A DNA stretch of 64,000 bases from Peptoniphilaceae bacterium (GTDB lineage: Bacteria; Bacillota; Clostridia; Tissierellales; Peptoniphilaceae): positions 1 through 64,000 of the forward strand of contig JALEKO010000012.1 of assembly GCA_022769085.1 (NCBI GenBank), written 5' to 3'. The number at the start of each line of letters is the position of its first letter. The stretch's first letter is position 1. The position numbers were made by a program, and so were the translations under genes. Of the stretch, positions 20,126-27,668 are shown piece by piece. The notes under the pieces are model-generated. The model worked only from the letters and a program-made list of their open reading frames with translations, made no database searches and had not been told where the DNA came from.

Positions 20126-21049
20126 TTAAAATGCAAGAAAATACATGAGAAGAATATGTATTACTATCATTATTAAAGCTATAGGAAGTTGTGCTTTTAT
20201 AACTCCATTTTCATCTTTCATTTCTAAAAGAACTGCAGGCAACATATTGAAATTTCCAGCCATTGGAGTCATAAGTGTTCCACAATATCCAGCAGTCATA
20301 GCTAAAGCAGATGCTATTGCAGGATTTGCTCCTTGTACAAAAACAAAAGGAACTCCAATTCCTGCTGTTATAACTGTAAATGCTGCAAAAGCATTTCCCA
20401 TTATCATTGTAAAGATAACCATTCCTAAACAATAAGCAATACATCCTGCAAGTATATTTGTTTCAGGTATAAATCCTCCAATCATATTTGATATAACATC
20501 TCCAACTCCTGCTAATGTAAAAATTGCTCCAAGAGATGCTAAAAGCTGTGGAAGTATTCCCAAAGGTCCAACCTGTTGTACCATTCTGTCAGACTGAGTA
20601 AGTACTTCTTTAGGATTTGATTTTGTAATTAAAAGTGCAATAAGAATAGATACAGCAGCAGAAATTCCAAGTGCTATTTTACTTGAACCTTCAACTAAAT
20701 TTGCAATTAAAAGTGCTATAAGTGCCATTAATATAACTGGTAAAAAAATTAAATTTCCATATTTTTTTGATTTTTCTTTTTCTTCAATTTCATTTTCAAC
20801 AGTTTTATTTTTATTAATTACACTATTTCCTAAATTAAGTACTCCTAAAACTACAACACCTACCCCACTAAGTAAAGGTGGTAAATAAGAGCCGAAAATA
20901 AATAATGCTGAAAGTAAAAACCAAAAAATAGAGGTTGTAATTTTTTTATTTGAATCATCTGATCTTAAAACTTTATATCCAGTATAAAAAAATTGAAGTC
21001 CTATAACTATATAAATTATCTCCAAAATTTTTGAAAAAATCGCATCCAT
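20126..21049 (-). CDS. DUF979 family membrane protein
   Basis: This 307-residue protein has about nine hydrophobic helices and a TMAGYCGTLMTPMAGNFNMLPA motif near the C-terminus that marks DUF979. DUF979 and DUF969 genes are commonly found together and often next to pcp. The pair looks like a secondary transporter split in two, probably for 5-oxoproline or pyroglutamyl peptides; that role is inferred from the neighbour. It overlaps the DUF969 gene by 1 nt. Confidence 0.85.
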   Translation of the reverse strand: MDAIFSKILEIIYIVIGLQFFYTGYKVLRSDDSNKKITTSIFWFLLSALFIFGSYLPPLLSGVGVVVLGVLNLGNSVINKNKTVENEIEEKEKSKKYGNLIFLPVILMALIALLIANLVEGSSKIALGISAAVSILIALLITKSNPKEVLTQSDRMVQQVGPLGILPQLLASLGAIFTLAGVGDVISNMIGGFIPETNILAGCIAYCLGMVIFTMIMGNAFAAFTVITAGIGVPFVFVQGANPAIASALAMTAGYCGTLMTPMAGNFNMLPAVLLEMKDENGVIKAQLPIALIMIVIHILLMYFLAF

Positions 21050-21723
21050 TATTCCCCTCCATTAATTCTTTTTAATTTTTTATCATCTAAAATATTTTTA
21101 ACAACTCCAAGTACAAATGCAATAATTGCTATGGGTATTGAATATTTTGCAACATCAGCATTACTTACACTATATCCTAGTGAATCAAGAGTTCCTGCTA
21201 TAAGCAAAACTCCACTTGCTCCCATAAATGTATTTTGTGCAAAGAAATTTCCTATATTTTCCATTGATGCAGATCTTGCTTTTATTTTTTCTTTAACTTC
21301 TTGATTGCTTTCTTTTTCATTTGCCTCAAAAGATGCCTGTGCCATAGGTTCAACAATTGGTCTTACAAGTTCTGGATGTCCTCCAAGTTTTATTGAGAAA
21401 AATCCTGCAATTTCTTTTATTAATAAATAGATACTTAAAAATTTACTTGTTGTTAAATTTTTTCTGCTATTTATCATTTCAACTGCTCTTTGTTTTAAAC
21501 CATTTATTTCGCTTAAACCTATTACAGGAAGAGTTATAATAAATAATGTTACTATTCTATTATCTACAAAACTTTGACCTAAAGTTGATAAAAAATCAAA
21601 AATAGATATTCCTGAAACAAGTGCTGTAACAAACCCTGCAAGAATAACTACAAACATTGTATTCATTTTAAGCATGAATCCTAAAACTATTATTAATATT
21701 CCAATAAGTTTCAAATATTCCAT
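21049..21723 (-). CDS. DUF969 family membrane protein
   Basis: The 224-residue membrane protein has five or six helices and the DUF969 pattern of a GLSEINGLKQRA loop near residue 75, GGHPELVRPIVEPMA and FFAQNTFMGASGVLLI. It is the first gene of the DUF969-DUF979-pcp operon, with AAGGAGG ahead of the ATG. It likely forms a two-component permease with the DUF979 protein. Confidence 0.85.
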   Translation of the reverse strand: MEYLKLIGILIIVLGFMLKMNTMFVVILAGFVTALVSGISIFDFLSTLGQSFVDNRIVTLFIITLPVIGLSEINGLKQRAVEMINSRKNLTTSKFLSIYLLIKEIAGFFSIKLGGHPELVRPIVEPMAQASFEANEKESNQEVKEKIKARSASMENIGNFFAQNTFMGASGVLLIAGTLDSLGYSVSNADVAKYSIPIAIIAFVLGVVKNILDDKKLKRINGGE

Positions 21724-21826
21724 TATATCCTCCTTGTATATTTATAAAATATTATATATTATTTTTTTATTTACTTCAATGATTTTTTTTACAAAACAAT
21801 ATCAATTTTTAAACATCAATTAAAAA

Positions 21827-21861
21827 AATCAAAGCATAATTATTTTTTGTTGCTTTGATTT
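21827..21861 (-). terminator. Intrinsic terminator after the sigma-factor gene
   Basis: An 11-bp stem AAATCAAAGCA/TGCTTTGATTT is followed by seven T on the minus strand. It ends the transcript that runs from dnaA or gyrB through the sigma factor. Confidence 0.85.
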
Positions 21862-21871
21862 TTACTATTTT

Positions 21872-22645
21872 TTATTTGATTTTATTAAATTCTATTGAAA
21901 ATTTTTGATTGATTTTTTTCTCAATTCTTGAAACTGTCATTTGGCTTATATCAAGTTTTTGTGCAATTGCTACCTGAGTCCAACCTTCATAGTACCTTAA
22001 ATTTAAAATATCTTTTTCTAAATCATTTAGTCTATCTATTGACTTTGTTATCATATCATTTAAATCGATGGATTCAAAATTTTTATCTTCTTCGCCAACT
22101 ATATCTGATAAATTAAGTTTATTTTCCCCTCTTTGAATTTCAAATTCACTATCTAAGCTTTGCGGAGAATATACTTTACTTGCTTCAATTGTTTCAAGTA
22201 TTGTTTCTTCATCTTCTCCTAAATAATCAGAAATATCTTTAATTGTAGGTGTTCTTTGTAATATTTGAGGAAGTGTCTTTTTGGCATTATTTATTTTTTT
22301 ATAAAGATTTTGTATTCTTCTTGGTACTCTTATTACCCAACCTTTATCTCTAAAATATCTTTTTAATTCTCCCATTATTGTAGGAGTTGCAAATGATGAA
22401 AAAGCATATCCTTTTTCAGGATTAAATCTATCAACTGCATAAATTAAACCCACTGATGCTACTTGATATAAATCATCTTTTTCTATTCCCTTATTTACGT
22501 ATTTATTTGATAAAATATCAACAAGATACATATGTTCTTCAATAAGCTTTTCTCTTAGCTTTGGATCTTTTGTTTTGTAATATTCTTCAAACTGTTTATT
22601 TATTTCATCCTTATCAGGTTTTATATATCTACTTTTATCAGACAT
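21872..22645 (-). CDS. RNA polymerase sigma factor of the SigB/SigF/SigG group
   Basis: The 257-residue sigma-70-family protein lacks region 1. Region 2 includes DLYQVASVGLIYAVDRFNPEKGYAFSSFATPTIMGELKRYFRD (about 62-104), region 3 follows with VRVPRRIQ-like VIRVPRRIQNLYK, and region 4 ends in the helix-turn-helix WTQVAIAQKLDISQMTVSRIEKK. That pattern is shared by general-stress SigB and the sporulation sigmas F and G. It stands 1 nt downstream of an anti-sigma gene. Whether it controls stress or is a relic of sporulation control cannot be decided from sequence alone. Confidence 0.9.
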   Translation of the reverse strand: MSDKSRYIKPDKDEINKQFEEYYKTKDPKLREKLIEEHMYLVDILSNKYVNKGIEKDDLYQVASVGLIYAVDRFNPEKGYAFSSFATPTIMGELKRYFRDKGWVIRVPRRIQNLYKKINNAKKTLPQILQRTPTIKDISDYLGEDEETILETIEASKVYSPQSLDSEFEIQRGENKLNLSDIVGEEDKNFESIDLNDMITKSIDRLNDLEKDILNLRYYEGWTQVAIAQKLDISQMTVSRIEKKINQKFSIEFNKIK

Positions 22646-22646
22646 T

Positions 22647-22979
22647 TCACACCTTTTTAACCAGCTTTATTTCAGAATCTCCTATTTCTACAAAATCAAC
22701 AAGTTCAGACAGAATAACATTTCTTATCGAAAGAATTTTTTCATCCATTTTTCTATCTTTTCCAAACACTTCAATAGTAAGCTTATTTTCTTCTATTATA
22801 TATTTTATAAGAACATCTTCTCCAGATATTTTATAATTAACCGCTTCTGAAACTACAACTCTTATATCTTCAACACTTTCAACGTCAAAACCCATTGATG
22901 ATGCTACAGAAGATGAAAATAATCTTACAGATTGCAGATACTTTGTATCAGATGGGATTTTTACAATTATTTCTTCCAT
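22647..22979 (-). CDS. Short RsbW/SpoIIAB-like anti-sigma protein, ATP site apparently lost
   Basis: At 110 residues it is shorter than RsbW or SpoIIAB (about 145-160). The N-terminal half matches the family (SVRLFSSSVASSMGFDVESVEDIRVVVSEAVN). The N-box is shifted and the G1 (DxGxG) and G2 glycine boxes of the Bergerat ATP pocket are missing: the segment VFGKDRKMDEKIL leads straight to the C-terminal strand. It may bind sigma without kinase activity. It lies between a STAS gene and the sigma gene with 1-nt junctions, so partner-switching is the expected role. Confidence 0.75.
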   Translation of the reverse strand: MEEIIVKIPSDTKYLQSVRLFSSSVASSMGFDVESVEDIRVVVSEAVNYKISGEDVLIKYIIEENKLTIEVFGKDRKMDEKILSIRNVILSELVDFVEIGDSEIKLVKKV

Positions 22980-23287
22980 TATTCATCCATCCCAAAAAGT
23001 TTTAATAAATCTGTTATCTCAAATATTTTCTTTATATTTCTTTTCGCATTTATTATCTTTACATTTTTATTTTTTTCATTTTGAATTTTATAAATATTAA
23101 TAAATTGACCAATTCCTGTTGAATCTATATAGTTTAGATCATTAAAATCAAATAATATATTTTTTTTGGTATTTTTTATATTATCATTTATAAAGTCTTT
23201 AAATGAATCTATAGAATAAACATCAAGATCACCTTTTATTATAACTTCTAATGTATCATCTTTTTCAATTAGTGTTTTTTCAAACAT
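22979..23287 (-). CDS. Anti-sigma factor antagonist (STAS domain, RsbV/SpoIIAA-like)
   Basis: This 102-residue STAS protein has the classic FNDLNYIDSTGIGQF motif (about residues 47-61), with the serine that partner kinases phosphorylate. It would bind the neighbouring anti-sigma protein and release sigma. It starts 1 nt after the gyrA stop and overlaps the anti-sigma gene by 1 nt. No separate promoter fits in the gap, so it is read with gyrA or from a promoter within gyrA. Confidence 0.9.
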   Translation of the reverse strand: MFEKTLIEKDDTLEVIIKGDLDVYSIDSFKDFINDNIKNTKKNILFDFNDLNYIDSTGIGQFINIYKIQNEKNKNVKIINAKRNIKKIFEITDLLKLFGMDE

Positions 23288-23288
23288 T

Positions 23289-25721
23289 TTAGTCCTCTTC
23301 CAAGTATTTTGTTACCGAAACAATTTTATCTTCATCTGAAACTATATCTTTTAATTTTACACCTTTAGTATTTCTTCCTTGAGTTGAAACATCTCTTACT
23401 GAAATTCTTATTATATCACCACTAAGTGAAACAAGCATGATATCTTCATCAATATTTACTGCAATTGATGCAACAATTTTTCCAGATTTTTCGCTAACTT
23501 TATGTGCTCTAATTCCAAGTCCGCCTCTTTTTTGTACTTTAAAATTGTTCAAACTTGTTTTTTTACCATTTCCATTTTCAGTTACCAAAAGTAAGTATAC
23601 GTTATTGTCAACTGAAACCATAGATATAACTTTATCGTCATCTTTTAATTTGATTGATTTTACACCACTTGCTTGTCTTCCCATTGTTCTTACATCTGAT
23701 GATGAGAATCTTATTGCCATACCATTTTGTGTTGTAATTATAAGATCAGTTTCTTTGCTTATCTGTTTTACAGATATTAACTTGTCATTATCTTTAAGTG
23801 CTATCGCAATTATTCCATTTGTTCTGATTTTTTTGAAATTTTCTGCGTTAGTTTTCTTTATTGTACCGTTGGCAGTTGCCATAACAAACTGATCTTCATC
23901 AGAAACTTTTGATAATGATACTATTTCAGCGACGTGTTCATCTTTTGAAAGATTTAATATATTTACAATAGCTTGTCCTCTGGCAGTTCTTGAAGCTTGT
24001 GGAATCTCATAAGCCTTTATTTTGTAAACTTTTCCAAGATCTGTGAAGAATAAAAGTTCTCCATGTGTATCGCTTGTTATTAATGATTCTACATAGTCTT
24101 CTTTTCCTGATGCAATTGCAGAAACTCCTTTTCCGCCTCTTTTTTGTACTTTATAATTTTCAATAGGAGATCTTTTAATATATCCTGAATGCGTAAAAGT
24201 TATTAATACATCTTCTCTTTCAACAAGTTCTTCAATATCAAATTCACCAGGATCTGCAACAATTTGTGTTCTTCTTTTATCTGAATAATTTTCTTTTATT
24301 TCATTTAATTCATCTTTTATTAAATTTAAAAGGTTATTTTCGCTAGATAATATTGAGTTGTAATATTCAATTTTTGCAATCAAATCTTTTTCTTCATCTT
24401 TAAGTTTATCTTCTTCAAGACCAGAAAGTCTTTTTAATTGCATGTCAAGAATTGCTTGACTTTGAACATCTGTTAAACCAAATTTTTCGTAGAATACTTT
24501 TTTTGTCTCTTCAATACTGTAATTTGATCTTATTATTTTTATTATTTCATCGATATTATCTATTGCAATAAGAAGGCCTTCAACAATGTGTTTTCTTGCT
24601 TTTGCTTTTTCTAAATCATATTTTGTTCTTCTTGTTACAACTTCTTTTTGGTGCTCTACATAAAAATGAATAAGATCTTTTAAATTTAAAATCTTTGGGA
24701 CACCATCTACCAGTGCAAGGTTAATTATTCCAAAAGAAGATTCCAAAGGAGTATGTTTGTATAAATTATTAAGAACTATCTCAGAATTAGCATCTCTTTT
24801 AAGTTCAACTACAATTCTAAGCCCATTTCTATCAGACTCATCTCTTACATCACTTATTCCTTCTATTCTCTTATCTTTTACAAGATCAGCAATTCTTATT
24901 ATAATTTTTGCCTTATTCTGCATATAAGGTATATCTGTAAAAACAATTCTTTCTCTATTCTTTTTGAAAGGCTCAATTTTTGAAGTAGCTCTTAATTTTA
25001 TAATTCCCCTTCCACTTTCATATGCTCTTTTAATCCCAGACTTTCCTAAAATATTTGCACCCGTTGGAAAATCAGGTCCTTTTATAATTTTATTTAATTT
25101 ATCAATAGTTATTTCAGGATTATCTATGTATTCAATAACTCCATCAATTACTTCTGATAAATTATGTGGAGGCATATTCGTGCTCATACCTACTGCGATA
25201 CCATTTGAACCATTTACAAGCAAATTAGGAAATCTTGAAGGAAGTATAACAGGTTCTTTTTCACTTTCGTCAAAATTAGGAATAAAATCAACAGTATCTT
25301 TATTTATATCTCTCATCATTTCAAGTGCAAGATCTGTAAGCTTAACCTCAGTATAACGCATAGCAGCTGCACCATCTCCATCAAGAGAACCAAAGTTTCC
25401 CTGACCATGTACTAATGGGTATCTTGTTGAAAAATCCTGTGCAAGTCTTACAACTGCATCGTAAATTGCAGAATCTCCATGAGGATGATATTTTCCCATT
25501 ACTTCTCCTACAACTCTTGCTGATTTTCTTGTAGCTTTATCAGGTGTAAGTCCTAAACCATACATTCCATACAAAATTCTTCTATGAACGGGTTTAAGTC
25601 CATCTCTTACATCTGGAAGAGCTCTTGACATTATTACCGACATAGAATAATCCAGGTATGAAGTTTTCATTTCATGTTCTATATCTACATTGTATATATT
25701 ATCATTTTGTATCTCTGTCAT
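23289..25721 (-). CDS. gyrA: DNA gyrase subunit A
   Basis: The 810-residue topoisomerase II subunit has the quinolone-resistance region [50 protein letters not shown], including the catalytic tyrosine, then the coiled-coil and C-terminal beta-pinwheel with the GyrA box QRGGKGV. With GyrB it introduces negative supercoils. At the first classical resistance position it has a serine-to-glycine-like context ([10 protein letters not shown] keeps Ser), so it looks wild type. It lies 9 nt after gyrB. Confidence 0.98.
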
Positions 25722-25730
25722 TTAAACCTC

Positions 25731-27668
25731 TTATACATCTAAATTCTCAACATTTTTAGCATTTACCTGAATAAATTCTCTTCTTGGTGCAACTTTATTT
25801 CCCATTAGCATAGAAAATGTCTGATCAATACTTACATCATCCTCTGAAGGAGCAACTTTAAGCAAAATTCTATGTTCTGGATTCATTGTAGTTTCCCACA
25901 ATTGATCCGCATTCATTTCTCCAAGTCCTTTGTATCTTGAAACTTTATATCTTTTATTTTCTTCTTGAAGTTGTTTTGTGACTTTTTCCATTTCTTTATC
26001 ATCATATACATATCTTTCATTTTTTCCTATTGCAAGCCTGTATAATGGAGGCTGTGCAATGTATACATGTCCTTGGTCAACCAAAGGTCTCATATATCTG
26101 TAAAAGAATGTAAGTAGAAGTGTTCTTATATGAGCTCCATCTACATCAGCATCTGTCATTATTATTATTTTTCCATAACGAAGTTTTTTAATATCAAAAT
26201 CTTCTCCAATTCCTGTTCCAAATGCTGTAATCATAGCCTGAATTTCTTCATAACCAAGAATTCTGTCAAGTGTTGCCTTTTCAACATTCATAATTTTTCC
26301 ACGAAGTGGAAGAATAGCTTGTGTTTTGTTATCTCGTCCTAGTTTTGCAGAACCTCCAGCTGAATTACCCTCTACAAGAAAAATTTCATTTTCATTTATA
26401 TCAGTACTTTGAGAATCAGCAAGTTTTCCAGGAAGTGTTGTATTATCAAGAATTGATCTTTTTCTCGTTATATCTCTTGCTCTTCTTGCAGCTTCTCTTG
26501 CTTTCCTACTTCTTAATGATTTTTCAATTATTATTTTCGAAGTTGAAGGATTTTCTTCTAAAAAATCTCCTACTTTTTCATATACAAATGTATCGACAGC
26601 TCCTCTTACTTCGCTATTTCCTAGTTTTGCTTTTGTTTGTCCTTCAAACTGCGGATTTTTTATTTTTACAGAAAGAATTAATGTAAGACCTTCTCTTATA
26701 TCATCTCCTGTTAAATTTTCTTCTTTTTCTTTTAAAAATGAATATTTTCTTGCATAATCATTTACAGCTCTTGTTAAAGCTGATTTAAAACCAGATAAAT
26801 GCGTTCCACCTTCGCTTGTAAAAATATTATTGCAATATGAGTGTATATTTTCAGAATATGAATCTGTATACTGCATTGCTATTTCAACTTGAGTGTCTTC
26901 CTGAATTCCATTAAAATAAATAACTTCAGGAAAAAGAGATTCTCTATTTTGATTTAAATATTCTACAAATTCTTTAATTCCACCTTCATAATAAAAAATA
27001 TTATCATATGGTATAAAATTTTCTTCATTTTCTAGATTTCTTCTATCTATAAAATGTATTTTGACTTCTTTATTTAAAAAAGCCATCTCTCTAAATCTCT
27101 TTATAAGGATTTCTCTTTTAAATTCAACTGTGTCAAATATTTCACCATCTGGTTTAAATGTTATTTTTGTACCAGTATCATCTTTATTAATATCTGAAAG
27201 TACTTTTAAATCTGAAACTGTAGTTCCTCTTTCAAATTTCATTTGATATACATGACCATTTCTTTTTACTTCTGCAATCATGTATTCACTTAATGCATTT
27301 ACTACAGATACCCCTACTCCATGAAGTCCTCCAGAAATTTGATAAGCATCATTGTCAAATTTTCCTCCTGCATGAAGTACTGTTAAAACTGTTTCCAAAG
27401 TTGATTTATGTGTCTGTGGATGCTCTTCTACAGGTATTCCAGAACCATCATCTGTTACTGTACATATATTCCCTTCATCAAGTTCTACAAGTATTTTTGA
27501 TGCCCTATTTGCAAGTGCTTCATCTATTGAATTGTCAACCACTTCATAAACAAGCTGATGAAGACCATGTTCTGATGTCGATCCTATGTACATTCCAGGT
27601 CTCATTCGTACTGCTTCAAGCCCTTTTAATACTCTTATATTTTTTGCAGTATAATTGTTCTCACTCAT
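25731..27668 (-). CDS. gyrB: DNA gyrase subunit B
   Basis: The 645-residue ATPase subunit has the GHKL ATP-binding motifs (VDNSIDEALA, DDGSGIPV, GGLHGVG), the TOPRIM domain with EGNSAGGSA and the DADVDG metal site, and the C-terminal GLGEM segment that binds GyrA. It forms A2B2 gyrase. It lies between recF and gyrA in the conserved origin operon, with a GAAAGGAAA ribosome site. Confidence 0.98.
   Translation of the reverse strand: MSENNYTAKNIRVLKGLEAVRMRPGMYIGSTSEHGLHQLVYEVVDNSIDEALANRASKILVELDEGNICTVTDDGSGIPVEEHPQTHKSTLETVLTVLHAGGKFDNDAYQISGGLHGVGVSVVNALSEYMIAEVKRNGHVYQMKFERGTTVSDLKVLSDINKDDTGTKITFKPDGEIFDTVEFKREILIKRFREMAFLNKEVKIHFIDRRNLENEENFIPYDNIFYYEGGIKEFVEYLNQNRESLFPEVIYFNGIQEDTQVEIAMQYTDSYSENIHSYCNNIFTSEGGTHLSGFKSALTRAVNDYARKYSFLKEKEENLTGDDIREGLTLILSVKIKNPQFEGQTKAKLGNSEVRGAVDTFVYEKVGDFLEENPSTSKIIIEKSLRSRKAREAARRARDITRKRSILDNTTLPGKLADSQSTDINENEIFLVEGNSAGGSAKLGRDNKTQAILPLRGKIMNVEKATLDRILGYEEIQAMITAFGTGIGEDFDIKKLRYGKIIIMTDADVDGAHIRTLLLTFFYRYMRPLVDQGHVYIAQPPLYRLAIGKNERYVYDDKEMEKVTKQLQEENKRYKVSRYKGLGEMNADQLWETTMNPEHRILLKVAPSEDDVSIDQTFSMLMGNKVAPRREFIQVNAKNVENLDV

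Follow-up and report, generated by a model that had tools for sequence, protein, structure and literature searches.

A gyrA-linked RsbW-like protein lacking the ATP site and a separate HATPase suggest a divided sigma-B switch in Clostridia

In the textbook partner switch, RsbW both inhibits the sigma factor and phosphorylates the antagonist RsbV, so that the cell's ATP state bears directly on the inhibitor. In the crystal structure of the B. subtilis RsbW-RsbV complex, Arg23, Asp42 and Glu49 of RsbW touch RsbV, and Ser56 of RsbV is in direct contact with Glu49 (PMC7340262). The C. difficile RsbV orthologue is phosphorylated in vivo at the serine of the same motif (PMC8730811; PMC9674922). In the SigF switch of M. 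smegmatis, experiments have assigned the two jobs to different proteins: RsbW1 is an anti-sigma factor without kinase activity, and RsbW2 is the only kinase of RsfB (Ser63) (PMC7693655).

We analyzed a 64,000-nt stretch of Peptoniphilaceae DNA, referred to here as the window, in which the minus strand reads dnaA, dnaN, recF, gyrB and gyrA, followed by genes for an RsbV-like STAS protein, an RsbW-like protein and a sigma factor (Table 1). The earlier note on this DNA had described 1-nt gaps after gyrA; the gyrA-STAS and RsbW-sigma gaps are indeed 1 nt each, but the STAS and RsbW-like genes overlap by 1 nt (TAATG). On the basis of this spacing, the module is likely to be co-transcribed with gyrA. 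A promoter scan of the gyrB-sigB region returned 48 matches (46.5 expected), and a search for SigB-type promoters (GTTT-N13-16-GGGWAW) returned 1 match (2.2 expected). The hairpin after sigB was absent from the output of a G+C-based terminator scan. Chance, assembly error and a pseudogene were ruled out as explanations, because the gene order and the loss of the ATP site recur in all 37 genomes of the window's family. At 20126-21723 of the window, two neighboring ORFs with the look of membrane proteins lie beside a pyroglutamyl-peptidase gene, with no NCBIfam match.

Table 1. Features of the switch module and its surroundings in the window, and candidate partners encoded elsewhere in the same genome
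Feature	Location	Strand	Evidence and remarks
dnaA	30321..31703	-	TIGR00362 above cut-off; first gene of the dnaA-dnaN-recF-gyrB-gyrA cluster housing the switch module
gyrB	25731..27668	-	TIGR01059 above cut-off
gyrA	23289..25721	-	TIGR01063 above cut-off
RsbV-like STAS anti-anti-sigma, 102 aa	22979..23287	-	PF01740 and TIGR00377 above cut-off; D-S-[TS]-G-x-G serine present as DSTGIG (Ser56)
Putative RsbW-like pseudokinase anti-sigma (P0002), 110 aa	22647..22979	-	Alignments; predicted fold similar to RsbW and SpoIIAB
SigB/SigF/SigG-family sigma factor, 257 aa	21872..22645	-	TIGR02980 (SigB/F/G) above cut-off (246.9 against 234.35 bits); regions 2, 3 and 4 all present
A+T-rich hairpin with U-run, possible terminator 3' of sigB	21790..21871	-	12-bp stem, -14.1 kcal/mol, z -2.0
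Stand-alone HATPase (P0004)	G000:C17:13920-14324 (L147:4921-5325)		Window's genome; unlinked to the gyrA-sigB module
PAS-PP2C phosphatase (P0005)	G000:C30		Window's genome; in trans to the module

The module had been described as fused to the gyrase operon. The adjacency is real, but it is no special fusion. RsbW homologues were detected in 60 of the 61 genomes searched from the window's family and order, and the remaining genome (G014) carries a divergent RsbW homologue behind a STAS gene and a gyrA-sized gene. With mechanically chosen start codons, the gyrA-STAS spacing ranged from -32 to 75 nt in the window's family and from 11 to 1077 nt in other members of the order. C. difficile and Romboutsia have the order gyrB-gyrA-~100-aa gene-rsbV-rsbW-sigB. 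Because the same arrangement of gyrA and the module is found across the order and in C. difficile and Romboutsia, the linkage is old, inherited and order-wide, with only its compression particular to the window's family. The novelty here is the pattern of ATP-site loss, not the link to gyrA.

Besides the synteny, the module shares with C. difficile RsbV-RsbW-SigB the sigma family, the serine motif (IDSTGLG in C. difficile) and a trans-encoded PP2C, whereas in C. difficile gyrA lies farther from rsbV, with the ~100-aa gene in between. The orthology with the C. difficile sigma-B module agrees with the stress switch proposed earlier; the alternative proposal, a reworked sporulation switch, does not hold, since SpoIIAA and SpoIIAB are separate genes in sporulating relatives.

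The RsbW-like protein scored below all family cut-offs (PF13581, 18.7 against 27.4; RsbW equivalog, 40.8 against 145 bits), and its sole PDB match was B. subtilis RsbW (E 4.9e-6). Despite the sub-cut-off scores, its relationship to RsbW is plain. The alignment confirmed the absence of the G1 and G2 boxes from the 110-residue protein, and the N-box Asn is gone as well, with E-A-V-N-Y placing Tyr49 at the Asn position. We scored the ATP site by five residues in B. subtilis RsbW numbering (N53, D84, G86, G114 and G116): aligned to B. subtilis RsbW, the window's protein has none of them, and all 36 aligned RsbW-like proteins of its family have two at most. The RsbV-docking residues are retained in the window's protein as Arg19, Asp38 and Glu45; the positions equivalent to B. 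subtilis Arg23, Asp42 and Glu49 are conserved in 36, 35 and 36 of the 36 family members, respectively, and in every member of the other groups aligned.

A Foldseek search with the predicted model of the RsbW-like protein, which was built from a four-sequence alignment and is of moderate confidence (pLDDT 66), gave 6m36 and 6m37 (RsbW/RsbV complexes) as the top matches, followed by SpoIIAB. With moderate confidence, the protein would thus belong to the RsbW/SpoIIAB family by fold, whereas its ATP site and the curated cut-offs appear to place it outside the kinases of that family. The module resembles B. subtilis RsbV/RsbW/SigB and SpoIIAA/SpoIIAB/SigF in fold, docking residues, serine target and gene order, and differs in that a single B. 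subtilis protein serves as both anti-sigma factor and kinase.

As noted before, the STAS protein keeps its DSTGIG serine. The RsbV serine was invariant in all 121 aligned homologues; in RsbV, Asp23 was likewise invariant and Tyr53 almost so. The conservation of Ser56 is by itself no proof of phosphorylation, because Ser56 touches Glu49 and binding could partly explain it. Each genome in the window's family has one STAS protein above the cut-off, which is therefore the only such substrate seen for an RsbV kinase.

Every genome of the family encodes a stand-alone HATPase away from the switch module, ~130 aa long in most. Its N, G1 and G2 boxes are intact in the window's genome (P0004) and in all 37 family genomes, and the residues of these boxes are invariant in 61 of 61 genomes of the order. 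The nearest solved structures are SpoIIAB and RsbW. One and the same genome therefore encodes a motif-negative putative anti-sigma factor (P0002) and a separate HATPase with N, G1 and G2 (P0004), the combination that would characterize a split switch. In the window's order, the HATPase gene is unlinked to the module and occupies a conserved site in most loci examined, which from gene lengths we take to be lon-engB-HATPase-typA; the site is rearranged in the window's genome.

In a class-wide sample, the HATPase profile found matches ~0.9 kb behind RsbW, and 32 other genomes of the class carry a four-gene operon, rsbV-rsbW-sigB-HATPase, in three of which the HATPase gene overlaps sigB by 14 nt. 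The second glycine box reads GRG in 30/32 linked and 61/61 unlinked HATPases, as compared with 0/25 intact RsbWs and 1/15 SpoIIABs. Five genomes of the class also encode small A1-like HATPases for which no surrounding sigma-B operon was detected (L268, L270-L273). The N, G1 and G2 boxes are all intact in C. difficile RsbW, and no stand-alone HATPase was found in this species or in Romboutsia when its absence was checked directly; a HATPase-like C. difficile match in a 105-aa frame was not matched by the HATPase profile, and only 364-aa and 60-aa ORFs are listed at that locus.

We then compared HATPase presence with the state of RsbW among about 110 relatives. RsbW was degenerate, with at most two of the five ATP-site residues, in all 32 genomes with the HATPase in the operon, whereas all five residues were present in 21/21 rsbV-rsbW-sigB genomes that lack the HATPase (C. 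difficile and Romboutsia among them), a set taken from the best-scoring RsbW matches and loci. Genome G087 was excluded from the operon counts, its fourth position being masked; at this locus (L274) RsbW is degenerate, and the remaining sigma gene and downstream sequence are masked as N. These perfect counts are not independent events, because all 32 genomes with the four-gene operon group together on the sigma tree. HATPase presence changed ~3 times and RsbW state ~6 times on this tree, and a paired test of the two had too few independent pairs to reach significance. The pattern breaks in three genomes, all from one family (G063, G102 and G156; L320, L319 and L318), in which the RsbW ATP site is atypical; neither the stand-alone HATPase nor an adjacent STAS gene was detected in them.

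Within the window's order, 4 of the 24 genomes outside the family have the HATPase alongside a fully intact RsbW, and the others grade to fully eroded. This range fits a takeover followed by decay, but it also shows that loss does not necessarily follow when the HATPase is present. The comparison of HATPase presence with RsbW state lends good support to the earlier suggestion that another kinase acts.

The genome also encodes other candidate enzymes of the kinds that the earlier note had thought worth seeking, namely, the HATPase, a Pkinase protein and the PAS-PP2C phosphatase. A SpoIIE/PP2C match was found in every family genome and was strong in 36 of 37, the exception being an 81%-complete genome; the frame is ~360-390 aa in nearly all. 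The catalytic Asp residues are invariant, and the N-terminus of the PP2C in the window's genome is PAS-like, whereas the C. difficile phosphatase RsbZ has tandem GAF domains (PMC12143880). In most genomes of the order examined, the PAS-PP2C gene (L168, L172, L181) follows an RlmL-like methyltransferase gene and precedes a phosphoglucose isomerase gene; in the window's genome it is preceded by ribosomal-protein genes. A link of the PP2C to a sensory hydrogenase was considered and rejected, the conserved neighbors being the phosphoglucose isomerase and the RlmL-like methyltransferase.

Taken together, we consider it probable that the two jobs of RsbW are divided in these bacteria among a pseudokinase adaptor RsbW, a HATPase acting as the RsbV kinase and a PAS-PP2C that reverses the reaction. 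We infer that the gyrA-linked RsbW no longer uses ATP and still binds both sigma and RsbV. The stand-alone HATPase would phosphorylate Ser56 of RsbV, leaving RsbW free to hold sigma; under stress, the PAS-PP2C would strip the phosphate from RsbV, and the unphosphorylated RsbV would capture RsbW, so that sigma is released.

RsbW and SpoIIAB are dimers, and the HATPase could instead form a mixed dimer with the pseudokinase, providing ATP while RsbW provides the sigma-binding face. The RsbW1-RsbW3 pair of M. smegmatis favors such an arrangement, but the M. smegmatis kinase RsbW2 did not co-purify with RsbW1 (PMC7693655), and we regard a mixed dimer as unlikely. It is quite improbable that the switch operates without phosphorylation, as the earlier note had proposed; RsbV and a kinase-dead RsbW would then be balanced by their relative synthesis, and Ser56 would serve only as a contact residue. 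The lack of an ATP site in RsbW, a tight translational spacing that would set the stoichiometry and the Ser56-Glu49 contact in the B. subtilis complex (PMC7340262) are consistent with this proposal. The invariant RsbV serine, the retention of an RsbV-type PP2C across the family and an intact HATPase in every genome, which elsewhere sits in the operon of the module, argue against it.

RsbT is likewise a small HATPase kinase and activates a PP2C (B. subtilis RsbU), and the HATPase might accordingly activate the phosphatase, or have another target, rather than phosphorylate RsbV. We find this very unlikely: RsbT acts together with RsbR/RsbS STAS proteins, whereas only one STAS protein was found here; the best solved relatives of the HATPase are SpoIIAB and RsbW; and the intact RsbW kinase site in every sampled genome without the HATPase would be left unexplained. 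A Hanks-type (PrkC-like) RsbV kinase is very improbable even though a 660-aa Pkinase protein adjoins a PP2C in the window's genome (G000:C35), since its gene showed no linkage to the module, the loss in RsbW goes along with the HATPase and the experimentally known RsbV kinases are, to our knowledge, GHKL proteins.

In the open-licence literature searched, the divided switch with the HATPase as the RsbV kinase has its only experimental precedent in M. smegmatis, and no description of such a division in Clostridia was found. In M. smegmatis, too, the anti-sigma factor and the antagonist kinase are separate HATPase-family proteins, and RsbW2 retains N, G1 and G2 (PMC7693655). However, M. smegmatis belongs to another phylum and its sigma factor to another lineage, and its kinase gene pairs with rsfB, whereas here the HATPase gene pairs with rsbV-rsbW-sigB or stands alone. 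Since the RsbWs of Clostridia span states from intact to wholly eroded, the two splits look independent.

On balance, we favor the broader view that, in a large part of Clostridia, RsbW is not a kinase and a small, hitherto unassigned HATPase family, encoded as the fourth gene of the operon or unlinked, may be the dedicated RsbV kinase, RsbW having decayed to a pseudokinase adaptor in most of the takeover lineages. Should the division hold for many Clostridia, the serine-kinase annotation of these RsbWs would be wrong, and the energy-sensing logic of the switch would move to another protein. The graded series from intact to eroded RsbW would then be a natural record of the change from kinase to pseudokinase, and the small HATPase family, with an ATP site that does not vary anywhere in the order, would gain a function.
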